Of a stretch of 35,303 bases of DNA, positions 14,434 through 30,414 are shown in pieces (positions within the stretch are counted from its first letter, which is position 1; every line of letters begins with the position of its first letter). Origin of the DNA: Deltaproteobacteria bacterium (GTDB lineage Bacteria; Desulfobacterota; DSM-4660; Desulfatiglandales; Desulfatiglandaceae); assembly GCA_019307945.1 (NCBI GenBank), contig JAFDIS010000028.1:1-35303 (forward strand). Direction: 5' to 3'. The translations under genes and the position numbers were made by a program. The notes beneath the pieces are model-generated. The model did no database searches, was not told the origin of the DNA, and saw only the letters and a program-made list of their open reading frames with translations.

Positions 14434-15501
14434 ATGAAAATTCTTCTGATCGGAACAGGCCGCTGGGGATCAAACCACCTTCGGGTCCTCTCCGGCCTGG
14501 ACGTGGACCTCTACGTGGCCGAGGTTTCAGCCGAGCGGCGAGAAAAATGCCTGGAACAGGGCATTCCTGCCGACCATGTCACCTCGGACTATCGCACCTT
14601 TGCCGAGGACGTGGACGCAGTGGATATCGTGACCCCGGCGTCAACCCATTTCGCCCTGTGCGAAGAGTTTCTGGACATGGGAAAAGACGTCTTCGTGGAA
14701 AAACCCATCACCGAAACGGTGCCCCAGGCCCTGGCCCTGGCAGCCAGGGCCGATGCGGGGGACCGGATCCTGCAGGTTGGCCACATCTTCCGATACGACC
14801 CGGCAGCCGACTATATCCGCTCGTTTCTGGGATCGGGCAAGGCCGGGGAGATCCGCTCCCTCTGCGGGAATTTCTCAGGGTTCAAACGCCCTCGCTCGGA
14901 CGGAGGTGTGACTATCTCCGACGCCCTTCACTTCATCGATTTTTTCAATTACATTATGGAAAAAATTCCCGATCGCGTCCTGGCCCGGTGCGAGGACCTG
15001 CTCCGCCGCGGCATGGATGACATGGCCTGGGTGTGGATGTCCTACAACGGCATTCCGGCCCTGGTGGAGGCCAACTATTTTTCAGTGAACAAAAACCGTC
15101 TAGTGACCATTACCGGAGACAAGGCGACCCTGGTATGCGACTTTGCAGCCTCGCAGGACAAGATCCGGGTCTACCGCAACCGACATATCCTGGACGAAGA
15201 CACATGGAAGGCCGTGGGCGGGGAGGTGATCCACCAGGAGATCCCCCCGGCCGAGCCCCTGCTGGAAGAGTTGAAGCACTTCGTCGGATGCGTCAGGGAC
15301 AGGACGAGGCCCAAGGCTGTCGCCCTGGACGGAGTGAATTCACTGCGTGTGGTGGAGGCCGCGATGCGCTCACACAACGAGGGGAAGGAGATCTTCCTGG
15401 AACCGGAGCCGGCTACGACGTGCAGCAGGGCCCCGGCCACCCCGGGACGCGGCCTTAACCCAAGGCGCACCAGGGCTCTGCCAAGGCCTGATCCTGGCTA
15501 A
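14434..15501 (+). CDS. Gfo/Idh/MocA-family oxidoreductase
   Basis: 355 residues. An N-terminal Rossmann fold carries G-x-G-x-x-G (LLIGTGRWGSN, 5-15), and the conserved EKP (Glu89-Lys90-Pro91) provides the catalytic-site lysine. The C-terminal half is the alpha/beta substrate domain, with the usual His region (ISDALHFIDFF). Family members oxidise or reduce sugars and nucleotide sugars with NAD(P). GGAAGGA (14415-14421) is upstream of the ATG. The last ~30 residues (EPEPATTCSRAP onward) are Pro/Arg-rich and run into the convergent dehydrogenase gene, whose stop codon overlaps this one by two bases (15498-15501). This tail looks like a recent extension. Clustering with the DegT aminotransferase suggests joint synthesis of an amino sugar. 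Confidence 0.9.
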   Translation: MKILLIGTGRWGSNHLRVLSGLDVDLYVAEVSAERREKCLEQGIPADHVTSDYRTFAEDVDAVDIVTPASTHFALCEEFLDMGKDVFVEKPITETVPQALALAARADAGDRILQVGHIFRYDPAADYIRSFLGSGKAGEIRSLCGNFSGFKRPRSDGGVTISDALHFIDFFNYIMEKIPDRVLARCEDLLRRGMDDMAWVWMSYNGIPALVEANYFSVNKNRLVTITGDKATLVCDFAASQDKIRVYRNRHILDEDTWKAVGGEVIHQEIPPAEPLLEELKHFVGCVRDRTRPKAVALDGVNSLRVVEAAMRSHNEGKEIFLEPEPATTCSRAPATPGRGLNPRRTRALPRPDPG

Positions 15502-16634
15502 AACCCCTCCAGCTTGGCGATGACCTCCAGCATGACCTCGTTGGCGCCCCCACCGATGGAAAGCAGCCTGGAGTCCCTGAATTTCCGGGAGATCAGGGTC
15601 TCGTTCATGTAGCCCATGCCGCCCCACATCTGGAGACACCCGTGTGCCACGTTGAAGACCAGATCCCCCGCGAACAGCTTGCCCATGGTGATTTCGCGGG
15701 TGGCGTCGAGGCCTTCCATCTTCATGCGGACGATGTGGTAGGTCAACTGCTTCAGGCACTCGAGCTGGGTCACCCACTCGGCCAGCCGGTGCCTCAGCAC
15801 CTGCTTCGCAATGAGGGGTTTTCCGAAGACCTTGCGCTGCCGTATGTATTCCACCGTCATGTCGATCATGTCCCTGGCGCTCACGTAGGCCCCGGGCAGC
15901 GCGTAGAACCGCTCGTGCTGGAATTGCTTCATCTGGATGATGAAGCCCTCCCCTTCCTCGCCGATCAGGTTCTCCGCGGGAATCCTCATGTCGTCGAAAA
16001 AAAGTTCGGCCGTGTCGCTGCAGCGCATGCCCATCTTGTCCAGCTTTTTGTTGACCACGAAGCCCGGGGTCTTGGTGGGCACCACGAAGAGGCCGAAACT
16101 GTGATACCCCGGATCGTCGCTGGTCCGGGCCAGGAGGGTCACGTAGTCCGCCTGGCAGCCATTCGTGATGAAGCGTTTCGACCCGTTGATCACGTAGGAA
16201 TCCCCGTCCTTCACGGCCCGGGTCAGGAGGCTTGCCACGTCGGAGCCCGCCTCGGGCTCGGTCACACCGATGGCCGTCACCATGTCGCCCGCAACGGCGG
16301 GCTTGAGGTAAGTCTCCTTGAGGTACTCACTGCCGAACTCGTGGATGGCGGGCGTGGCCATGTGGGTCTGGACCCCGATGGCCATCGGCACACCGTCGGC
16401 CTTGCAGTGGCCCAGTTCTTCCAGGAAAACCAGGTCGAACCAGTAGTCCAGGCCCTGCCCGCCGTACTTGGGGTCATATGTGATGCCCAGAAGGCCCAGA
16501 TCCCCCATCTTCTTGAAAAGATCATGAAGCGGAACGTTCGACTGCTCCCAGTCGTCCACGTATGGGTTTATCTCCTTGTCCACGAATCTCTTGACCGTCG
16601 CCCGCAAGGCGTTGTGATCTTCGTTGAAATACAT
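15498..16634 (-). CDS. Acyl-CoA dehydrogenase, AtuD (citronellyl-CoA dehydrogenase)-like
   Basis: 378 residues, complete FAD-dependent acyl-CoA dehydrogenase: TEPEAGSD and ITNG flavin/substrate motifs in the middle beta domain, and RQRKVFGKP in the C-terminal helical domain. The Glu of short/medium-chain enzymes is replaced by Gly362 (SIGGGANEVM). A Glu is present at the isovaleryl/long-chain position instead (Glu241, QHERFYALPG), so it is probably active. The opening (EINPYVDDWE, FKKMGDLGLLGI, GVPMAIGVQT) and SIGGGA ending are the signature I recall for AtuD-like dehydrogenases of branched acyl-CoA. It is last in the six-gene operon, 64 bases after the BKACE gene. The exact substrate is unknown. 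Confidence 0.92.
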   Translation of the reverse strand: MYFNEDHNALRATVKRFVDKEINPYVDDWEQSNVPLHDLFKKMGDLGLLGITYDPKYGGQGLDYWFDLVFLEELGHCKADGVPMAIGVQTHMATPAIHEFGSEYLKETYLKPAVAGDMVTAIGVTEPEAGSDVASLLTRAVKDGDSYVINGSKRFITNGCQADYVTLLARTSDDPGYHSFGLFVVPTKTPGFVVNKKLDKMGMRCSDTAELFFDDMRIPAENLIGEEGEGFIIQMKQFQHERFYALPGAYVSARDMIDMTVEYIRQRKVFGKPLIAKQVLRHRLAEWVTQLECLKQLTYHIVRMKMEGLDATREITMGKLFAGDLVFNVAHGCLQMWGGMGYMNETLISRKFRDSRLLSIGGGANEVMLEVIAKLEGF

Positions 16635-16698: not shown

Positions 16699-17565
16699 TC
16701 ATCCCTTGAGGCCCAGGATGGCGCGGGCCTCTTCGGCCGTGGCGATCTCCCTTCCCACCTCCCGGACGATCCCGGCAAGGGCTTCGACCAGTTCGCCGTT
16801 GTTGCGAGCCTTCTCCCCGCTGGGCAGGTAAAAGGTATCTTCCAGGCCCGTTCGTACGTTTCCACCTTCTTCCAGAGCCTTTCTCTGCAGATCCCAGACC
16901 TCTTTGCGACCCACGCAGATCACCTGCCAGTGGGTACCGGGGAGCATTTCGTTCTTGAGGAGCGGAATCCACTCCGGCTTTGCCGGCTGGCCGCTCGCCA
17001 CGCCCATGACCAGGGAGATGTGGGGGTCGCCCTCGAACATCCCGGCCTTCTTATACAAGGCCACACTGCGGACGATGCCCGAATCGAAGCACTCGAATTC
17101 GGGTACCACGTCGTTGGCCTTCATGGCATCCAGGAATGCCTGGACCTTTTCCACCGGGTTGTCGAACAGCGTGGGCGGCCAGGCCCAGGTCCCGTCGCTC
17201 TTGAGCTTGAGGTAGTTGAGGGAGCCCGCATTACAGGCCGCCATTTCCGGCTTTGTGGCCTCCAGGCAGGCCACGGGTCCCGAGATGTCGGGTCCCACGA
17301 GGCCCGTACTCTGGTTGATGATGATGCCCGGGACCCGATCCCGAATGGCGTCTATGATGGACTTTACCACATCCACGTCCCAGGTGGGCAGGTAGCCCAT
17401 TCCGGGATGCTGGTCCCTGAAGTGACAGTGCACGATGGTGGCCCCCTGGTCCCAGGCCTGCTGGGCCGCTTCGGCCATCTGCTCGGGCGTGACCGGGAGA
17501 TTCGCCATGGAGGGATCCGTCAACACACCCGTCAGGGCGCAGGTCAGTACGACTTTATCGCTCAT
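16699..17565 (-). CDS. BKACE-family (DUF849) beta-keto acid cleavage enzyme
   Basis: 288 residues, full length for a TIM-barrel Zn or other divalent-metal enzyme of the 3-keto-5-aminohexanoate cleavage family. These enzymes condense a beta-keto acid with acetyl-CoA and split the product to acetoacetate and a new acyl-CoA. Evidence: an N-terminal strand VVLTCALTG, the metal ligands His46 and His48 in IVHCHFRD, IINQSTG, and the FECFDSG motif. AGGAGGA lies five bases before the ATG. The substrate side chain varies widely in this family, so lysine fermentation is not implied, and no kamA/kdd/kal genes are present. It sits between a carboxyltransferase and an acyl-CoA dehydrogenase, suggesting that it releases an acyl-CoA in the same pathway. 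Confidence 0.92.
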   Translation of the reverse strand: MSDKVVLTCALTGVLTDPSMANLPVTPEQMAEAAQQAWDQGATIVHCHFRDQHPGMGYLPTWDVDVVKSIIDAIRDRVPGIIINQSTGLVGPDISGPVACLEATKPEMAACNAGSLNYLKLKSDGTWAWPPTLFDNPVEKVQAFLDAMKANDVVPEFECFDSGIVRSVALYKKAGMFEGDPHISLVMGVASGQPAKPEWIPLLKNEMLPGTHWQVICVGRKEVWDLQRKALEEGGNVRTGLEDTFYLPSGEKARNNGELVEALAGIVREVGREIATAEEARAILGLKG

Positions 17566-17620: not shown

Positions 17621-19177
17621 TCACGTAGGGGAAGATCCGTGCGGTTTCTTTCGCGGCGGCAAGGTCTCTTTCTTTTTCTCCGTAATCTTCAGAGCGTAAA
17701 TGATTTTCCGGCGCGTGTCCCGGGGCAGGATTATCTCGTCCACCACCTGTGCGGTCCAGGAGCGCGCCGCGGCAAAGGCATCCGCCTTCTCCCTTGACCA
17801 TTTGAAGTAGGAGTCATAGGCGTCGGACTCCACCATGTCCCCCAGCACATCACGGTAGTCCAGGGTGGAGGCCTCCACGGCGAAGCGGGCCATGGGCCAG
17901 GCGAAGGTGACATCCGCGCCCAGACCCTTGAGCCCTCCCATGATGAGGCTCCCCGCGTCTGCGTAAGCCTCCCTGAGGACCACGCCAATCTTGGGCACGG
18001 TGGTGGTGGCGTACACATCCACGATCTTTCCCACGTGGCGGATGAGCCCCCGGGCTTCCTCCGCTTCGCCGGGCACCACCGGCGGGGTGTCCGTCAGATT
18101 CACAAGAGGCAGGTTGTATGCGTCCAGCACCTGCAGGAACCTGTAGTACTTGTCGCATGCGTCCACCGCCAGGGTGCCGCCGGGATACTTGGGATTGTTC
18201 GCCACCAGGCCCACGGGCCTTCCGTCGAAGCGGCAGAAACAGCATATGAGACTCTTGGCGTATTCGTCTTTGATCTCGAAGTAGTCCCCGTCGTCCACCA
18301 GGACCTTGATCACGTCGTGCATGTCATAGGTCTGATCGTAGTCATCCGGCACCAGATCGCCGAGTTCCGGCACTTCCCGGTCCGCCGGGTCGGTACGCTC
18401 CCAGAGGGGGGGCGTTTCCCTGTAATTGGAAGGCAGGTATCGAAGCATCTCCCGGCACTTGAGGATGGTCTCCTCGTCGTCGTCCCCCACCACGTCGCAG
18501 CTCCCTGAAAACTGCATGTGATAATCGGCGCCCCCGATGTTGCGGTCGATCACCTCGGACGTGGCGGCCGCCGTCTGGCGCGGTCCCCCCAGCCACATGT
18601 TGCCCGAAATCCTGCTCATGAGCAGGAAGTCGCACAGGGTGGGCAAATAGGCCGAGCCCGCGATGCAGGGGCCCATGAGCACCGTGATCTGGGGGATAAC
18701 ACCGGAGATGCGTGACTGTATCCTGAAATACCAGTCCAGGCCCGCGGTGGCCACGTCCTGGTATCCCAGTCGCCCCCCGGAGGAGTCCAGCAGGTGCACC
18801 ATGGGCATGCCCCACTGGGTGGCCAGTTCCATGCACCTTGCCACCTTCATGAGGCTCTGAGTGGCCACGGATCCCCCCATCACGGTGAAGTCCGCCGCCT
18901 GGATCATCACCATGCGCCCGTGGATCCTTCCCGTGCCGGCCACTACCCCGTCACAGGGTGCGTCGGGTATCACCCCGTCGATGCGCATCCCCGTGGTGTT
19001 CACGCAGGAGCCAAGTTCTTCGAAGGTGCCCGGGTCCAAAAGGATATCGATGCGCTCCCGGGCCGTCAGCTTTCCCCTTTCGTGCTGGCGGTCTATATGC
19101 TTTTGACCGCCTCCAATCTTGTTCTTTTCCTGGATCTCCAGGTATTTCTTGATGGCCTCTTCCATTGTCCGGCCCAT
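17621..19177 (-). CDS. Biotin-dependent carboxyltransferase-like subunit A
   Basis: 518 residues with the two crotonase-fold halves of PccB/MccB/GcdA-type carboxyltransferases (N half about 30-270, C half about 285-500), ending in the usual LPRDTRRKIIYAL. Motifs are partly degraded. The N-side D-S-G-G-A-R is DSSGGR (131-136). The C-side phrase normally Y-G-G-A is AYADAG (404-409), and the usual R-H-G-A-K is RHVGK. The carboxybiotin side is therefore the more altered. GGGAGGG supports the ATG at 19177; a GTG seven codons earlier has no clear site. It lies 25 bases after subunit B. No biotin carboxylase or carrier is encoded in the window. It may be half of a heteromeric carboxyltransferase or decarboxylase. 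Confidence 0.9.
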   Translation of the reverse strand: MGRTMEEAIKKYLEIQEKNKIGGGQKHIDRQHERGKLTARERIDILLDPGTFEELGSCVNTTGMRIDGVIPDAPCDGVVAGTGRIHGRMVMIQAADFTVMGGSVATQSLMKVARCMELATQWGMPMVHLLDSSGGRLGYQDVATAGLDWYFRIQSRISGVIPQITVLMGPCIAGSAYLPTLCDFLLMSRISGNMWLGGPRQTAAATSEVIDRNIGGADYHMQFSGSCDVVGDDDEETILKCREMLRYLPSNYRETPPLWERTDPADREVPELGDLVPDDYDQTYDMHDVIKVLVDDGDYFEIKDEYAKSLICCFCRFDGRPVGLVANNPKYPGGTLAVDACDKYYRFLQVLDAYNLPLVNLTDTPPVVPGEAEEARGLIRHVGKIVDVYATTTVPKIGVVLREAYADAGSLIMGGLKGLGADVTFAWPMARFAVEASTLDYRDVLGDMVESDAYDSYFKWSREKADAFAAARSWTAQVVDEIILPRDTRRKIIYALKITEKKKETLPPRKKPHGSSPT

Positions 19178-19202
19178 AAGCTGTCCCTCCCTCGACACGT
19201 CC

Positions 19203-20753
19203 CTAAGCAGGCTTGATCCACCGTCTGCGTTCCATTGGTCTTTCGTCCTTGTCCCACGCCGCCCGAAGGGCCCTTATGATCCTGGGCCGCGTATCCCGGG
19301 GGTCGATTACCTCGTGCACAGTGTAGTAGTGGGTGAACCCCTTGCCCATATTCATTACGCTGAACTGTTCCTTGAGAATATTCAGGAAAAAATCGTAGAC
19401 CTCCTGGTAGTTCCCTTCCTCCTTGGCCTTGGCCAACTGCTTATGGAAGACCGCCTGCACGATGGACTCCGGGCCCGTGGGAGCAAACTCCACCGTGGGC
19501 CACCCGTAGATATAATCAGGACCCATCTTTGAGCAGCCCATGGTGATGTTGGAGCCGCCGTAGGAGCGCCGCAGCACGATGGTCACCTTCGGATTGGTGA
19601 GGTTGGAGTAACCGTGCAGGTTCTTGGCGCCGTGCCTGATCACCCCCATGCGCTCCCATTTGTCTCCCGGCGGATACGCCGTGGTGTCGGACATGTTGAT
19701 GATGGGAATATTGAAGTTGTCCAGGAACATCATGAACCGGTCGTATTTGTCCGACGAGTCGGGCTCCATGATGCCGCTCAACTCGTCCGGATTGCTGGCC
19801 ACGATCCCTGCGGGCATGCCGTCGAACCTGGCGAAGCCCGCCACGAGATTGGGAGCGAAATCCTCCTTGATCTCGAAGAACTCCCCATCGTCCACGATCA
19901 GGTCTATGATCTCATGGATGTCGTATGTAAACTTGGGATTGTCCGGCATCACGTCCAGAAGGGCCTCTTCCCGTCGCTCCGGATCGTCCGTGGGCTCTGT
20001 GCACGGGGGCTTGTGCCAGCAGTTCTGAGGCATGAATTCCAGAAGACGCTTGGCCTGGTCCAGTGCCTCCTCGTCACTTTCAGCCAACAGGTCCACCTGT
20101 CCGCTCTTTGTCATATGGAACTCGGCCCGGCCCGCATCTTCCGTTTCCATCTCTCCGCCCAGCCACAGAAAGCCGGTCTTTTCATTCATGATGAGAAAGT
20201 CGGAGAGCACCGGCACGTGGGCCAATGGCCCGGTGCAAGGCCCCAGGACCAGCGCGATCTGGGGAATGACGCCCGAATAGAGGCAATAGTTCCTGATGAG
20301 CCGTGAAAGGCCGTAGAGGCCGGCAAAGCCCCTCGTGAAGGTGATCCGGGAGCCCACGCCGTCGAAGATGCCGATGATGGGGACCCGTTGCTGGCCCGCC
20401 ATCTCCACAAGTTCGGCCATCTTCCAGACCCCCTGTTCCCCCAGGGAACCACACATTACCGTATAATCCACGGCGTACACCATGATCTGTCGTCCGCCCA
20501 CCGTGGCCGCACCCATCACCACCCCGTCTGAGGGGCTGGGTTTTTTCAGTTCACCCAGCCGTTCCCTCGGGTCGCGGACCAGGGAGCCCAGTTCCTCGAA
20601 CGAGCCTGGATCCACCAGGTGCGCAATCCGCTCTCGGGCGGTGAGTTTTCCGAGCTTCCGCTGGAGCGCCAGGGCCTCCGGCCCCCCCGCTTCTTCATTT
20701 TCCCGGCGGTTGGCGGCCAGTTTCTCCAGAAAGCCGTCCATCCATTGTCCCAT
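19203..20753 (-). CDS. Biotin-dependent carboxyltransferase-like subunit B
   Basis: 516 residues, the same two-crotonase architecture as its neighbour but clearly a distant paralogue. Here the N-side D-S-G-G-A-R is degraded to DGVGSR (131-136), while the C-side carboxybiotin motifs are kept: RHGAK (373-377) and SYGGSN (397-402). It ends with IDPRDTRPRIIRAL. GGGAGGA is seven bases before the ATG at 20753; an in-frame TTG six codons earlier is not preferred. Position second to third in the acyl-CoA operon, 66 bases after the small dehydrogenase. The complementary loss of motifs in the two subunits is what suggests that they work together. Confidence 0.9.
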   Translation of the reverse strand: MGQWMDGFLEKLAANRRENEEAGGPEALALQRKLGKLTARERIAHLVDPGSFEELGSLVRDPRERLGELKKPSPSDGVVMGAATVGGRQIMVYAVDYTVMCGSLGEQGVWKMAELVEMAGQQRVPIIGIFDGVGSRITFTRGFAGLYGLSRLIRNYCLYSGVIPQIALVLGPCTGPLAHVPVLSDFLIMNEKTGFLWLGGEMETEDAGRAEFHMTKSGQVDLLAESDEEALDQAKRLLEFMPQNCWHKPPCTEPTDDPERREEALLDVMPDNPKFTYDIHEIIDLIVDDGEFFEIKEDFAPNLVAGFARFDGMPAGIVASNPDELSGIMEPDSSDKYDRFMMFLDNFNIPIINMSDTTAYPPGDKWERMGVIRHGAKNLHGYSNLTNPKVTIVLRRSYGGSNITMGCSKMGPDYIYGWPTVEFAPTGPESIVQAVFHKQLAKAKEEGNYQEVYDFFLNILKEQFSVMNMGKGFTHYYTVHEVIDPRDTRPRIIRALRAAWDKDERPMERRRWIKPA

Positions 20754-20819: not shown

Positions 20820-21947
20820 CTACAGGCCCAGGCCCCGGGCTACTTCCTCGTAGTGAAAGTCCGTGTCGCCGAAAGCCACATCCGCCCCCACCGTCCTCCT
20901 ATGGTACAGGTGCAGGTCGTGCTCCATGGTGAAGCCTATGGCCCCGAAGATCCGATGGCCCACTGTGGTGACCTTGCGGCCCAACTGCCCGGCGCGCACC
21001 TTGGCCATGCCCACCTCGTTGCGGGCTGGCCGGCCTGTAGAAATCTTCCAGGCCGCCCGGAGCACAAGGTTACGGGTGCCCAGGATATCCAGCCACATGT
21101 CGGCCAGGTAATGCTGGATCGCCTGAAAACTTCCGATGGGTCTTCCGAACTGGACCCGCTCTTTTGCGTAGGCCAGGGTCAGATCCAGCGTTGCGCGCAT
21201 GGCCCCCACGGTTTCTGCGGCACGGGCCACGGCGGCCCGATCCAGGGCGGAACGGACCATCGGCCACGCAAGGCCCTCGGGGCCCGCCAGGCGCTCGGGT
21301 CCCAGGCGTACCTTCCGAAGGACCACCTCGCACTGCCTCTCCCCCGAGATGGTCTTGAGCGGCGTCACGGAGACACCTTCATCTCTGGAGTCCACCAGGA
21401 AAAGACTCAGGCCTTCGCCCGGGTCCCCGCCGGTCCGGGCCACGCACAGAATCCGGTCAGCGGCCAGGGCATCCGGCACGAAGAGCTTCGTCCCATCCAG
21501 GACCCAGCCGTCTCCTTCCCGCACCGCGGTGGTCCTAACGACGGAAGAGTCGTAACCGCAGTCCGATTCCAGGACCGCCAGTGTGAGGATCTGCTTTCCC
21601 CGGGCCACGAGGGGCAGGATCTCGGACTTTTGGGCCTCGGTGCCGGCCTCAACAAGCAGGGGTGCCGCCAGGACCGCCGTGGAGACGAAGGGCCCGGGGC
21701 AGAGGTTGTATCCCATCTCCTCCAGGAGTACGGCCATGTCCAGGAAAGACCAACCCGCGCCGCCGTAAACCTCGGGCAGGATCAGCCCCTGCCAGCCGAG
21801 CTCGGCCATCTTTTGCCAGAGTTCCGGGGAGTGGCCCGTGTCACTTTCATTGAGTTGACGCACCAGCTCTTTGGGGCATTCCTTTTTGAGAAAGTCCCGG
21901 GCCGTTTTCTGGAGGATCCGCTGCTCTTCGTTCAATTCGAAGTCCAT
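20820..21947 (-). CDS. Acyl-CoA dehydrogenase, small/non-catalytic-type subunit
   Basis: 375 residues with the overall acyl-CoA dehydrogenase fold (N-terminal helices, middle beta domain about 120-225, C-terminal helices with KERVQFGRPIGSFQAIQH). The flavin/substrate motif is weak (LESDCGYDSS for T-E-P-x-A-G-S-D). Neither usual catalytic Glu is seen: the isovaleryl-type position reads SALDRAAVA (Asp236) and the C-terminal position has no Glu-Gly pair. This matches the smaller partner in heterotetrameric dehydrogenases such as the steroid FadE26/27-type pairs. It follows its larger partner by 19 bases. A stand-alone enzyme using Asp236 cannot be excluded. Confidence 0.87.
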   Translation of the reverse strand: MDFELNEEQRILQKTARDFLKKECPKELVRQLNESDTGHSPELWQKMAELGWQGLILPEVYGGAGWSFLDMAVLLEEMGYNLCPGPFVSTAVLAAPLLVEAGTEAQKSEILPLVARGKQILTLAVLESDCGYDSSVVRTTAVREGDGWVLDGTKLFVPDALAADRILCVARTGGDPGEGLSLFLVDSRDEGVSVTPLKTISGERQCEVVLRKVRLGPERLAGPEGLAWPMVRSALDRAAVARAAETVGAMRATLDLTLAYAKERVQFGRPIGSFQAIQHYLADMWLDILGTRNLVLRAAWKISTGRPARNEVGMAKVRAGQLGRKVTTVGHRIFGAIGFTMEHDLHLYHRRTVGADVAFGDTDFHYEEVARGLGL

Positions 21948-21966: not shown

Positions 21967-23166
21967 CTATCTCGCCCGGGGCAGACCCAGGCCCCGTGTG
22001 GCTATGATACTCTTCTGAATCTCCGAGGTCCCGGCCCCGATGGGCCCGGAGATGGAATCCAGGTACCCCAGGGCCACTCTGCCTCCGAACGGGGCCCACG
22101 GGGACCCCTTGTCCAGCAGCCCGTAAGGGCCCAGGATATCCACTGCCGTGTTGGCGAGTTTGACGCCCAGCTCCGTGAAGAAGAGCTTGAGAGCCGACGC
22201 CTCCGTTTCCGGGACCCGCCCCTGGTCCTGTATCCACGCCGACTGCCAGTAGAAACTGTAGAACATCTCGATCTCAATGGCCATCTCGGCGAGTCTCCGG
22301 CGCACATGAGGATCCTGGGCCAGAGGCCTGCCGTAACGGGTGGTCTCCTTCGCGTACTGGACGAGTTCCTCCAGGACTCTTTTAAAGGCACCGGAACCGA
22401 TGGCCAGCCGCTCAAACTGAAGCGCCAGCATCACGTTGTAGAAGCCCTGGTTCACCTCACCCACCACGTATTTCTTGGGGACCCGCACGTCGTCGAAAAA
22501 GACCTCGTTGAAGGAGTGATTCCCGCATATGTTGATGATGGGCTTGATGGTGACGCCGGGCGTATCATTGGGGATGATCATCAGAGTGGCGCTCCGGTGC
22601 CGGGGGGCTTCGGGGTCCGTCTTCACGATGGCCCAGGCATATTCGGTCACGTGGGCCCCGCTGCTCCAGATCTTCTGGCCGTTCACCACGAAGTGATCGC
22701 CCCGGTCCACGGCCGTGGTCTTGATGGCGGCCAGGTCGGAGCCCGCGTTGGGCTCGCTGTAGGCCAGCCAGAAGCCCGCTTCGCCGCTGGCGATCCTGGG
22801 GAGGAACTCCCGCTTCAAATCCTCGCTTCCAACCAGAAGAATCGTGGGAGCCGCGATGGTGACGGCCACCCCGCCCGCCGGGGCACGATAATAGGAAAGG
22901 ACGTCGCCCGCGATGGCCGCCTTCATGGCCGAGTTCCGGCCCCCGTACTCCTCGGGCCACCCGAGGCGGTTCCAGCCCTTTTCCCCAACCATGCGGTTGA
23001 ACCTGCGGGTGATTTCCTGAAACTCGGACTCCATCTGGGGCATGGTGCCGTAGCTTCCGGGCCAAAACACGGCCTGATCGTCCCAATCGGGCGGAAGTTC
23101 GGCCTTGACGAAGTCCTCCACCTCCTTGCGGAACGCCAGTTGTTCCGGTGTGAATGAAAAGTCCAC
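21967..23166 (-). CDS. Acyl-CoA dehydrogenase, large/catalytic-type subunit
   Basis: 399 residues. Full motifs: YSEPNAGSDLAAIKT (flavin and acyl-CoA contact), VNGQKIWSSGA, YGRPLAQDP, and a C-terminal GAGTSEIQKSIIATRGLGLPR. Its probable base is Glu252 in ALQFERLAIGSG, the isovaleryl/long-chain position, with Ala-Gly in the short-chain position. The sequence is of the type seen in large subunits of alpha2-beta2 dehydrogenases for bulky acyl-CoA (steroid side chains, pimeloyl-CoA). The start is GTG at 23166, supported by GGAGGGA. It is the first gene of the operon, about 90 bases downstream of a promoter with a palindromic operator. Confidence 0.92.
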   Translation of the reverse strand: MDFSFTPEQLAFRKEVEDFVKAELPPDWDDQAVFWPGSYGTMPQMESEFQEITRRFNRMVGEKGWNRLGWPEEYGGRNSAMKAAIAGDVLSYYRAPAGGVAVTIAAPTILLVGSEDLKREFLPRIASGEAGFWLAYSEPNAGSDLAAIKTTAVDRGDHFVVNGQKIWSSGAHVTEYAWAIVKTDPEAPRHRSATLMIIPNDTPGVTIKPIINICGNHSFNEVFFDDVRVPKKYVVGEVNQGFYNVMLALQFERLAIGSGAFKRVLEELVQYAKETTRYGRPLAQDPHVRRRLAEMAIEIEMFYSFYWQSAWIQDQGRVPETEASALKLFFTELGVKLANTAVDILGPYGLLDKGSPWAPFGGRVALGYLDSISGPIGAGTSEIQKSIIATRGLGLPRAR

Positions 23167-27164: not shown

Positions 27165-27489
27165 GAATGACCTCCCCTCCACTCGTCCGTGCCAGGGATG
27201 AAAGACTCGCCCCACGGGGCCTGCCGGCAGACAGGCACCGTGGGCATTCCACCCTTCTGGCAATGCATACTTTTTGTGCGCTCCGCCGAAAAAAATCAAC
27301 AGGTTATCGCACACCGGCATTTACGATGAAGCAGTATAGGAAAACGGGCGGCGCCGGGTCAAGGAGAAAGGGTTCCACGGCTTAGGGCTTGCCTTTTGGG
27401 CCGGGCTCCAATAGGTTTTTGGGCGGCCGGCCTTACGGCGGCCCCAGGTGGAGGTTCTCCACAGCCCTGAAAACAAGGGAGAAGGATTG
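27165..27489. other. Divergent intergenic region with a strong hairpin
   Basis: 325 bases between the thiolase and the Dph6-like gene. CCCACGG (27211-27217) pairs with CCGTGGG (27238-27244). After a G/A mismatch, GCCTG (27219-27223) pairs with CAGGC (27232-27236). This 12-pair hairpin would lie in the thiolase leader. No confident promoter was found in either direction, although an AT-richer stretch at 27270-27350 is the likeliest place. Confidence 0.45.
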
Positions 27490-28221
27490 ATGGCACGTGA
27501 AGAAGAAGGACGGCCCCCGGGGCCGGCCGCAGAGGTCTCGGCGGGGGGTGGACGCCCCGAGCCCGCCCTCCTGTGCTGGAGCGGTGGCAAGGACAGCGCC
27601 ATGGCCCTTCACCGGCTGGTTCACGAAGGCGGCCGATATACTCCGGTGGGCCTTCTCACCACGGTGACCGAAGTCTACGACCGGATCAGCATGCACGGAG
27701 TCAGGCGGTCCCTGCTCCGGCGCCAGGCCCGGTCCCTGGGACTTCCCGTCGAAGAGGTGGTCCTTTCCCCCCACAGTTCCAACGAGGAGTATGAGGCCCT
27801 CATGGAGGACGTGTTGGTTCGGTGGAAAAGGAAAGGGGTGAATTCCGTGGTATTTGGTGATATCTTCCTGGAGGATATCCGAAAGTACCGGGAAGAGAAT
27901 CTGAACAAAGTGGGGATGCGGGCCGTTTTCCCCCTCTGGGGACAAGACACGTCCGCGCTGGCGGAGTGGTTCCTGGCTTCGGGGTTTCGCGCCGTGGTCA
28001 CCTGCGTGGACTCCCGTGTCCTGGCAGGCTCCTTTGCCGGCAGGTACATGGACGAAGCCTTCTTTTCGGACCTTCCGGAAGGGGTGGACCCATGCGGGGA
28101 AAACGGTGAATTTCACTCTTTCGTGGTGGATGGTCCCATCTTCCGAAAACCCATGGTCTTCACCGTGGGAAAGACCGTACTGCGGGATGGTTTTTACTTT
28201 TGCGACCTTCTGCCCGCCTGA
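27490..28221 (+). CDS. Dph6/DUF71-family PP-loop ATPase
   Basis: 243 residues. The PP-loop SGGKDSA (31-37) of the adenine nucleotide alpha-hydrolase fold is followed by family-typical phrases: VVFGDIFLEDIRKYREE, FPLWGQDTSALAEWFLASGFRAVVTCVDS, and the C-terminal GVDPCGENGEFHSFVVDGPIF. In eukaryotes and archaea the family makes diphthamide on EF-2. Bacteria lack diphthamide, and bacterial members are of unresolved function, some linked by context to cobalamin salvage. GGAGAAGGA precedes the ATG at 27490; a frame from 27448 is not preferred. It is followed by cutA after 33 bases. Confidence 0.9.
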   Translation: MAREEEGRPPGPAAEVSAGGGRPEPALLCWSGGKDSAMALHRLVHEGGRYTPVGLLTTVTEVYDRISMHGVRRSLLRRQARSLGLPVEEVVLSPHSSNEEYEALMEDVLVRWKRKGVNSVVFGDIFLEDIRKYREENLNKVGMRAVFPLWGQDTSALAEWFLASGFRAVVTCVDSRVLAGSFAGRYMDEAFFSDLPEGVDPCGENGEFHSFVVDGPIFRKPMVFTVGKTVLRDGFYFCDLLPA

Positions 28222-28254
28222 TCCGGGCGCGGCAGAAATTCCGGGAGGACTCCC

Positions 28255-28572
28255 ATGGACCTGTGCCTCGTGTACATGACCGCCGGCGACGAGGAGGAGG
28301 CCCGCAAGATCGGAAAGGCCCTTGTGGAAGAGCGGCTTGCGGCCTGCGTGAATATCTTGGGCGGTATGAACTCCTTTTACTGGTGGGACGGAAAAATCCA
28401 GGACGACGCCGAAGCCGTGCTCCTGGCCAAGACCCGAAGGGCCCTGGTCCCGGATCTCATCAACCGGGTCAAGGCCATTCACAGCTATGAGGTGCCTTGC
28501 ATCGTGGCTGTGCCCATCACCGATGGAAATCCCCGATTCCTTGCCTGGGTGGAGGGGGAAACGGCGCGCTGA
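28255..28572 (+). CDS. cutA: CutA1-family divalent-cation tolerance protein
   Basis: 105 residues, the size of the trimeric CutA1 fold. Family phrases are present: LVYMTAGDEEEARKIGKALVEERLAACVNIL, SFYWWDGKIQDDAEAVLLAKT and YEVPCIVAVPITDGNPRFLAWV. It was named for copper tolerance in E. coli, but its actual biochemical role is unclear and it is widespread. Its stop is directly before the ABC transporter gene (six bases), so it is in the same transcription unit as the Dph6-like gene and msbA. Confidence 0.94.
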   Translation: MDLCLVYMTAGDEEEARKIGKALVEERLAACVNILGGMNSFYWWDGKIQDDAEAVLLAKTRRALVPDLINRVKAIHSYEVPCIVAVPITDGNPRFLAWVEGETAR

Positions 28573-28578
28573 GGCCCG

Positions 28579-30414
28579 GTGGAATCCATGCTGGACTTGA
28601 TCCTGGGAAAAGATATCGCCCGGTACGTCAAACGGCACAAGAAACTGCTCGTGCTGGCCATGCTGCTTACCGCGGCCTCCTCCCTGTTCGTGGTGGTTCC
28701 GGCCTATCTCCTTCAACCCTTTGTGGACGAAGGCATGAAGACGGGCACTGATCCCGTGGCCTGGAAGATTCCCTGGGTCACTTTCGAACCCGGCACCTGG
28801 TGGTCCTGGAAACGGACCGAACGAGTCATCGTGGAGGGAATCTCCCCCAATCACCTACTTTTCATCCTTACTCTGGTGGCATTTGTCTCGGTCCTGCTCA
28901 AATCGATCACCGTCTATTTCGGGGAGATCAGCGCCACGGCCTTTTCCAACCGGGCCGTTCGTTCCCTGCGCATCGACCTCTTCCGCAAGTTCGTCTCTTT
29001 GCCTCTCAGCTTCTACCACAAGAGGCGATCGGGTGAGCTCATCGCCCGCGCCACCGCAGACCTCACAGTGATGCAATCGGCCATCTCGAGCGTCATTATA
29101 GGCCTCATTCAGCACCCACTGACCGCCATAGTCTTTCTTGCCTATCTCCTTTTCATGAACTACCAGCTCACCCTCCTGGTGTTCGTGGCCGTCCCCGTAA
29201 TCCTGGGCATCATCCGCCTTTTCGGGAGAAAGGTCAAAAAACACGCGGTGCGGGTGCAGGACGCCACCGCGGAGGTGACCTCCGCATACCAGGAGATGCT
29301 CGTCTGTCTCAAAGTGGTGCACGGATTTTTCAAAGGAGAGAGGGAGACGGCACGCTTCAAGGAACTGGCCGATAACCTGTACCGTCGAATCATGCGGTGG
29401 GCCCGGTGGAATATCGGCGTGGGCCCCATGCTGGATGCCACGGTGTTCCTGGTCCTGCCGGCCGTATTGATGGCCGGAAAAATATATTTCCACCACACCC
29501 TGGGAGAACTGATGTCCATGATCTACGCCTTTTCCAGGGTGTACAGCCCCATCAAGAGATTGGCCAAGATCCTCAACAGTCTGCGGACCTTACAAGGAGC
29601 CACGACACGGGTATTTGCCATCATGAACACGGAGCCCGACATCCGGGACCGTCCCGGCGCCGTAGAATTGGGCCGACACCGGGACTCGATTCGGTTCGAA
29701 GACGTCCACTTTGCGTATCGGCCCGAGGAGCCCGTGCTGCGAGGCGTTTCCTTCGAGGTGAAGGCGGGGCAAATGGTAGCCTTCGTGGGTTCCACGGGCG
29801 CGGGCAAGAGCACACTGCTGGACCTGGTCCCGCGCTTTTATGATGTGACCCAAGGCGCAGTCACCATCGACGGCCTGGATGTCCGGGAGGTGACGCTGGA
29901 CTCCCTCCGGAGGCAGATAGGCATCGTGAGCCAGGAGGTTCTCCTGTTCCACAAGACCATTGCCGCCAATATCGCCTTCGGAGCGGACCACGTGGACATG
30001 GACCGGGTGGTGGAGGCGGCCCGGGCCGCTCACGCCCACGACTTCATCATGGCCCAACCCAAGGGATACGACACCGTGGTGGGAGACCGGGGCACGTTGC
30101 TGTCCGGGGGGCAGCGGCAGCGCATCGCCATAGCACGGGCCATCCTGATCCGCCCTTCCATCCTCATCCTGGACGAGGCAGCGTCGGCCCTGGACGCGGA
30201 AAGCGAACGATATGTACAGGCGGCCATCGAGAGCCTGCATGGGGGACCCACCATTCTCGTGGTGGCCCACCGCTTGAGTACCATATTGAAGGCCGACCTG
30301 ATCCACGTCTTGGAAAATGGAAAGATTGTGGAGTCCGGAACACTTCATGAACTCCTCTCCGCAGGGGGAAGGTTCCGTGACCTCTACGATATGCAGTTCA
30401 GTAAACAAACATAG
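28579..30414 (+). CDS. msbA: MsbA-type lipid A flippase (ABC exporter)
   Basis: 611 residues, a half-transporter of membrane domain (about 1-340, six spans) plus nucleotide-binding domain. Walker A is GSTGAGKS (404-411), the ABC signature LSGGQRQR (508-515), Walker B ILILDEA (528-534), and the switch His is His564. In Gram-negative bacteria MsbA flips core-lipid A across the inner membrane. The assignment rests on the neighbouring LpxL-like and LPS glycosyltransferase genes. The first external loop (about 50-95) is longer and Trp-rich compared with E. coli MsbA. The start is GTG at 28579 with GAGG overlapping the cutA stop; ATG at 28588 is an alternative. Confidence 0.93.
   Translation: MESMLDLILGKDIARYVKRHKKLLVLAMLLTAASSLFVVVPAYLLQPFVDEGMKTGTDPVAWKIPWVTFEPGTWWSWKRTERVIVEGISPNHLLFILTLVAFVSVLLKSITVYFGEISATAFSNRAVRSLRIDLFRKFVSLPLSFYHKRRSGELIARATADLTVMQSAISSVIIGLIQHPLTAIVFLAYLLFMNYQLTLLVFVAVPVILGIIRLFGRKVKKHAVRVQDATAEVTSAYQEMLVCLKVVHGFFKGERETARFKELADNLYRRIMRWARWNIGVGPMLDATVFLVLPAVLMAGKIYFHHTLGELMSMIYAFSRVYSPIKRLAKILNSLRTLQGATTRVFAIMNTEPDIRDRPGAVELGRHRDSIRFEDVHFAYRPEEPVLRGVSFEVKAGQMVAFVGSTGAGKSTLLDLVPRFYDVTQGAVTIDGLDVREVTLDSLRRQIGIVSQEVLLFHKTIAANIAFGADHVDMDRVVEAARAAHAHDFIMAQPKGYDTVVGDRGTLLSGGQRQRIAIARAILIRPSILILDEAASALDAESERYVQAAIESLHGGPTILVVAHRLSTILKADLIHVLENGKIVESGTLHELLSAGGRFRDLYDMQFSKQT

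Follow-up and report, generated by a model that had tools for sequence, protein, structure and literature searches.

CT-A and CT-B, two neighbouring carboxyltransferase (CT) genes, are paralogues whose products probably belong to a single acyl-CoA carboxylase that depends on biotin. Its CT core would be A3B3 and would work together with a biotin carrier and a biotin carboxylase encoded on another contig of the same genome (C32). Besides being paralogous and adjacent, the two genes show a crossed conservation of active-site motifs, and matching carrier and carboxylase genes are present. The following mechanism can be proposed. A PCC-type homohexameric CT ancestor would have been duplicated, after which the copies would have lost complementary halves. 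The A3B3 ring would be built from three A-B dimers, each having a catalytic site composed of the N-domain of A (DSSGGR, GPCIAGxAY and the GPR...TSE loop) and the C-domain of B (RHGAK and RRSYGG), and the opposite site of each dimer, in which the N-domain of B meets the C-domain of A, would be derelict. A free carrier of 88 amino acids, charged by the AccC-type biotin carboxylase of C32, would deliver carboxybiotin, and the enzyme would serve a catabolic CoA pathway comprising acyl-CoA dehydrogenases and a beta-keto acid cleavage enzyme (BKACE), as well as enoyl-CoA hydratases in relatives.

The window is the whole of contig C9 (35,303 nucleotides), which belongs to a genome of 4.16 Mb that is 98.5% complete. 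The pair lies within a same-strand run of six genes, consisting of two acyl-CoA dehydrogenases, CT-B, CT-A, BKACE and a third acyl-CoA dehydrogenase:

21967..23166, minus strand: acyl-CoA dehydrogenase, first gene of the operon; best match the large subunit of pimeloyl-CoA dehydrogenase, below cut-off
20820..21947, minus strand: acyl-CoA dehydrogenase; best match the small subunit of pimeloyl-CoA dehydrogenase, below cut-off
19203..20753, minus strand: CT-B, 516 aa; Carboxyl_trans (PF01039), Pfam 2.5e-115; C-domain half of the active site kept (39 orthologues)
17621..19177, minus strand: CT-A, 518 aa; Carboxyl_trans (PF01039), Pfam 4.4e-111; N-domain half of the active site kept (38 orthologues)
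16699..17565, minus strand: BKACE (PF05853), same operon; Pfam 1.2e-83
15498..16634, minus strand: acyl-CoA dehydrogenase of the short-chain type, last gene of the operon; profile matches

The PF01039 domain spans the full length of both CT proteins, which are approximately 38% identical and have two crotonase-fold domains each (fold search performed with CT-B). The likely start codon of CT-B is the ATG at 20753, and that of CT-A is the ATG at 19177, which is separated from the end of CT-B by 25 bases and preceded by a good ribosome-binding site as read from the sequence, GGAGGGACAG. A scan of the operon for promoters and terminators gave results no better than those for shuffled sequence, save for one TTGACA-N17-TATGGT match some 100 bases before the first gene. 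Elsewhere in the window, a 473-aa and a 213-aa ORF lie next to each other (27433-28854 and 28855-29496, both minus strand); neither has a Pfam match, and the former has no NCBIfam match either.

To compare the active sites, 38 A and 39 B orthologues were aligned with nine carboxyltransferases from the PDB and seven paralogues from the host genome, using the numbering of 1vrg. The motifs are located as follows:

18770..18787, minus strand: CT-A N1 motif DSSGGR, invariant in 38 orthologues
18647..18673, minus strand: CT-A N2 motif GPCIAGSAY, equivalents of Gly184 and Tyr187 in 38/38
18026..18040, minus strand: CT-A C1 motif RHVGK, degenerate; RHGAK in active CTs
17951..17974, minus strand: CT-A C2 motif REAYADAG, degenerate, with a two-residue insertion
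20346..20363, minus strand: CT-B N1 motif DGVGSR, poorly conserved across B orthologues
20226..20243, minus strand: CT-B N2 motif GPCTGP, degenerate, with Pro at the Gly184 position
20145..20162, minus strand: site of the N-domain loop deleted from CT-B; GPxxxKxxTxEE absent in all B
19623..19637, minus strand: CT-B C1 motif RHGAK, intact in 39/39
19554..19571, minus strand: CT-B C2 motif RRSYGG, intact

A preliminary description of this DNA had pointed out that residues 131-136 read DSSGGR in A and DGVGSR in B, and that RHGAK and SYGGSN in the C-domain of B correspond to RHVGK and AYADAG in A. Counted from the likely starts of the two minus-strand ORFs, these readings are correct, and so is the proposal that each subunit has kept a different half, since it is borne out by crossed conservation among the 38 A and 39 B orthologues. 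Neither CT-A nor CT-B has a full set of intact motifs, as A lacks the C half and B the N half. All 38 A orthologues have Gly184, Tyr187 and Phe161, with Pro209 and Glu218 kept as well. Of Gly392-Ala393, Gly416 and Gly444, nearly all are lost in A, whose RKAYGG motif is interrupted by two inserted residues. In B, Gly392-Ala393 of RHGAK, Gly416 and Gly444 are present in 39/39. Position 184 is never Gly in these 39 sequences (Pro in 30, otherwise Val), position 187 is mostly Gln instead of Tyr, and the loop containing residues 209-218 is missing from every one. The clear loss of the N half in B thus consists of the replacements of Gly184 by Pro or Val and of Tyr187 by Gln or another residue, together with the deletion of the GPxxxKxxTxEE loop. 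The change of DSGGAR in B, pointed out in the preliminary description, is a weaker signal, because its D, G and R are present in both subunits.

The crossed pattern is also seen when invariant columns are counted over 36 distinct paired loci. In A, 17/22 columns of the N motifs are invariant vs 9/36 of the C motifs (p = 1e-4); B shows the opposite trend, with 8/22 vs 22/36 (p = 0.10), and the interaction between subunit and half has a z of 3.9. Among the columns that are invariant in the references, seven in the N half are kept by A only and none by B only, and in the C half two are kept by A only and four by B only. The latter test is modest (Fisher p = 0.02 for these counts, range 0.02-0.04) and not significant with PCC-type references alone (p = 0.48), so that the case rests on motif positions and not on bulk conservation. 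The complementary loss of motifs is neither chance nor a quirk of a single genome.

The consequences of this pattern follow from the way in which CT sites are shared between subunits. In MccB, the active site is formed by residues 137-237 of one monomer packed on residues 392-492 of another, with CoA contacting both domains (PMC5187497). Within the GGARI loop, residues 143, 145 and 147 bind the adenine through their backbone, the N-H groups of Ala145 and Gly184 bind the pantetheine, and Gly420 touches the thioester sulphur (PMC5187497). In our alignment the N-domain numbering of MccB equals that of 1vrg, and Gly420 falls within the GGAY motif. With Pro at position 184, B has no backbone N-H to offer to CoA there. 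Since a CT site combines the N-domain of one subunit with the C-domain of its neighbour, an A-B dimer would contain one complete and one derelict site. The division into one acyl-CoA site and one carboxybiotin site, as initially suggested, does not hold, because the MccB sites join N- and C-domains and CoA touches both (PMC5187497). Modelled as monomers, the two proteins reach only moderate confidence (pLDDT 67 and 62), which is low in the segments of the active site. In the fold search, the AlphaFold model of CT-B matches 1vrg with a TM of about 0.83. Assembly of A and B as A3B3, with activity at half of the sites, is what the shared-site geometry would predict.

The statement that biotin genes are lacking nearby is correct for contig C9 but does not extend to the relatives or to the rest of the host genome. 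Scanning species genomes for CT-B resulted in 27 loci, of which 17 have a carrier and/or carboxylase gene within the fetched flanks; most of the other ten have a contig end close to the pair. The gene that most relatives have there is that of a small carrier, often accompanied by a carboxylase. The genome-wide search for a carboxylase and carrier of matching type, which the preliminary description had recommended, retrieved two biotin carboxylase genes and five biotin/lipoyl-domain matches in the host. Among these is a bicistron (C32:3212-4872) encoding the 88-aa carrier and an AccC-type biotin carboxylase of 463 amino acids. The latter is 60-74% identical to the carboxylases beside the CT pair in relatives, which are on average 69% identical among themselves; another carboxylase of one relative, taken as comparison, reaches 54%. 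The C32 carrier is 74-86% identical to the pair-linked carriers of the two relatives compared. As biotin genes adjoin the pair in relatives and occur on C32, their absence from C9 is a matter of location. A matching carboxylase and carrier are present in the genome, and they would be expected to serve CT-A/CT-B. The other host carboxylase, on C84, is of the MCC type, and hence the C32 carboxylase may also, or mainly, serve a fused AccA-AccD protein on contig C118 (L055:7434-9242; 602 aa, an ACCA domain followed by Carboxyl_trans), which is likely the CT of the housekeeping acetyl-CoA carboxylase. A further small biotin/lipoyl carrier gene, on contig C34 (L046), adjoins methylmalonyl-CoA mutase.

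These genes bear directly on whether the pair could function as the CT in a biotin-dependent enzyme passing CO2 to another acceptor, be it a decarboxylase or a transcarboxylase, as in the Na+-pumping decarboxylases or transcarboxylase 12S. This is unlikely. Contig C9 does lack a biotin carboxylase, the host genome does have one OAD-beta gene, and the mmdA subfamily is the best NCBIfam match of the pair; however, an AccC-type carboxylase adjoins the pair in many relatives, and the mmdA scores of 448 and 430 bits are far below the cut-off of 999, which places CT-A and CT-B outside the MmdA class. Matches to GcdA are only at 1e-17 to 1e-23, and OAD-beta was not found near the CT pair. The single host OAD-beta gene, on contig C31 (L047), adjoins a PYC/OadA-type carboxyltransferase located directly upstream of this membrane subunit, instead of the CT-A/CT-B pair, and these two genes are a separate decarboxylase system. 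The missing biotin genes on which the preliminary description had based a decarboxylase, a transcarboxylase or a loss of biotin chemistry are found in the clusters of relatives and in the C32 bicistron of the host, which weakens all of these readings.

It is also quite improbable that each subunit forms a homohexameric CT of its own, with a different substrate, and that the two merely share an operon. Both are full-length two-domain CTs, and all tested mycobacterial CTs, including AccD4 and AccD5, are homo-oligomeric (PMC4347857). On the other hand, every site of a homodimer of A or of B would have one derelict half, the losses in A and B are complementary and conserved, and the two genes were not found apart in the genomes sampled. 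CT-B lies directly upstream of CT-A in 27/27 loci, with CT-A at 64-80% identity, and in a sample of 395 genomes of the phylum B was found in 18 and A in 19, with both in all 18. In the 19th genome (G094), A starts about 1.1 kb from the apparent C-terminus of a B that is cut by the contig end. An orphan A is not demonstrable there, as the contig end falls inside this apparent C-terminus, beyond a repeat-rich stretch. The stretch itself (L089:10020-11280) separates CT-B from CT-A by about 1.1 kb of intergenic DNA containing GGAGGGGCGGGCTCCGCACGCC-like units; at other loci this gap is usually between a few bases and a few hundred. Thus, none of the 395 genomes could be shown to have A or B on its own, nor was a lone homologue with complete motifs found among them. 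The distances within A and within B correlate at 0.88 over 36 loci, which is partly expected from common ancestry. Two CT-B/CT-A pairs per genome occur in G036 and G047, with the second pair of G047 split by contig ends, which suggests diversification of the pair. Several Desulfobacterota have the pair, among them Desulfatibacillum alkenivorans, which degrades alkenes, and it is also present in the Gram-positive sulfate reducer Desulfotruncus.

That A and B are crotonase-fold hydrolases or lyases now outside biotin chemistry could be imagined from the conserved site residues lost in each of them, but it is highly implausible, as the pair together retains one complete motif set and biotin genes travel with it in relatives.

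Returning to one carboxylase built from both subunits, its origin was addressed with two maximum-likelihood trees of the A and B orthologues and 16-17 other CTs, the second of which adds five CTs from plasmids. In both trees A and B each form one clade (100/100), and these are sister clades (100/99 in the first tree, 100/100 in the second). They group with the PCC/ACC-type CTs, apart from the MCC/GCC type, with less support for the exact sister of A+B (88/83). The subunits share a derived LWLGG replacing MFITG, and the nearest CTs outside the A/B group are at approximately 40% identity, with no intermediate seen. Sister clades and a common LWLGG fit a duplication of one homomeric CT followed by complementary decay. 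Combined with the invariable adjacency, the crossed conservation and the lack of demonstrable lone homologues in the 395 genomes, they give good support to the earlier proposal that a homohexamer has become an obligate heteromer.

Concerning the pathway, CT-A/CT-B is most likely an acyl-CoA carboxylase of a catabolic CoA pathway, which we infer to run in the ATP-driven direction. BKACE lies near the pair in 11/27 loci of relatives and might use a beta-keto acid that is released downstream. Genes for an enoyl-CoA hydratase and an acyl-CoA ligase are also among the neighbours in relatives, and four of the loci have a lyase of the AtuA family. AtuA-like lyases split a tertiary-alcohol CoA intermediate during naphthalene degradation (PMC12016498). 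The combination of ligase, dehydrogenase, hydratase and AtuA in some relatives fits an Atu/Liu-like gamma-carboxylation of a beta-methyl-branched acyl-CoA. This candidate was rejected, as A and B belong to the alpha-carboxylating lineage and no AtuA match was obtained in the host genome, the latter being a weak absence since control genomes gave none either. According to PMC5187497, Phe161 is shared by every CT with a known activity on acyl chains of up to four carbons, a rule derived from homomeric enzymes. Its presence in 38/38 A orthologues makes a short acyl-CoA the first, tentative guess for the substrate.

Both mixed CT rings, as in AccD4/AccD5, and CT halves on two proteins, as in AccA/AccD, are already known; in the open-access literature, no report was found of a CT made of two paralogues in which complementary halves have decayed. 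PccB (1vrg, 3n6r, 6ybp) resembles CT-A and CT-B in fold, domain order, lineage and sequence (36-40% identity). However, it is encoded by one gene and forms a homohexamer with six equal sites, whereas CT-A and CT-B are two paralogues with half a site each. The AtuC/AtuF and LiuB/LiuD clusters for geranyl- and methylcrotonyl-CoA carboxylase have ligase, acyl-CoA dehydrogenase, hydratase and AtuA-like lyase in common with some relatives' pairs, but they are of the MCC/GCC lineage, unlike CT-A/CT-B. The mycobacterial long-chain acyl-CoA carboxylase (PDB 9t97, 9yx1) combines the CT paralogues AccD4 and AccD5, for which interaction data have been described (PMC4347857), in one complex that uses AccA3 and a small epsilon subunit. 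In the PDB tables of the 9t97 and 9yx1 series, 12 and 24 chains over 6 entries give a mean of 2 AccD4 and 4 AccD5, suggesting a ratio of 2:4, in contrast to the 3:3 predicted for CT-A/CT-B. Moreover, AccD5 works in its own complex with AccA3, with propionyl-CoA as the principal substrate (PMC4347857), and is therefore not an obligate half-enzyme. Bacterial AccA/AccD, finally, is like the pair in having the N-half and C-half on different polypeptides, with separate biotin carboxylase and carrier proteins. AccA and AccD are single-domain proteins, interpreted as the products of a single CT gene split in two (PMC3199775), whereas CT-A and CT-B have both kept two domains, of which the unused half has decayed, and so fall outside the AccA/AccD class. 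The chances seem about even that the pair represents an undescribed family of acyl-CoA carboxylases with a catabolic substrate new to these enzymes, in which an obligate A3B3 CT ring with three working sites, arisen by duplication and complementary decay, would be a living intermediate between PccB and AccA/AccD. If the mixed ring is true, it would give a functional identity to the pair across several Desulfobacterota and in Desulfotruncus, and it would be a clear case, readable in living sequences, of a shared-site homo-oligomer turning into an obligate hetero-oligomer, with a bearing on how bacterial fatty acid synthesis came to use a carboxyltransferase in two pieces, AccA/AccD.
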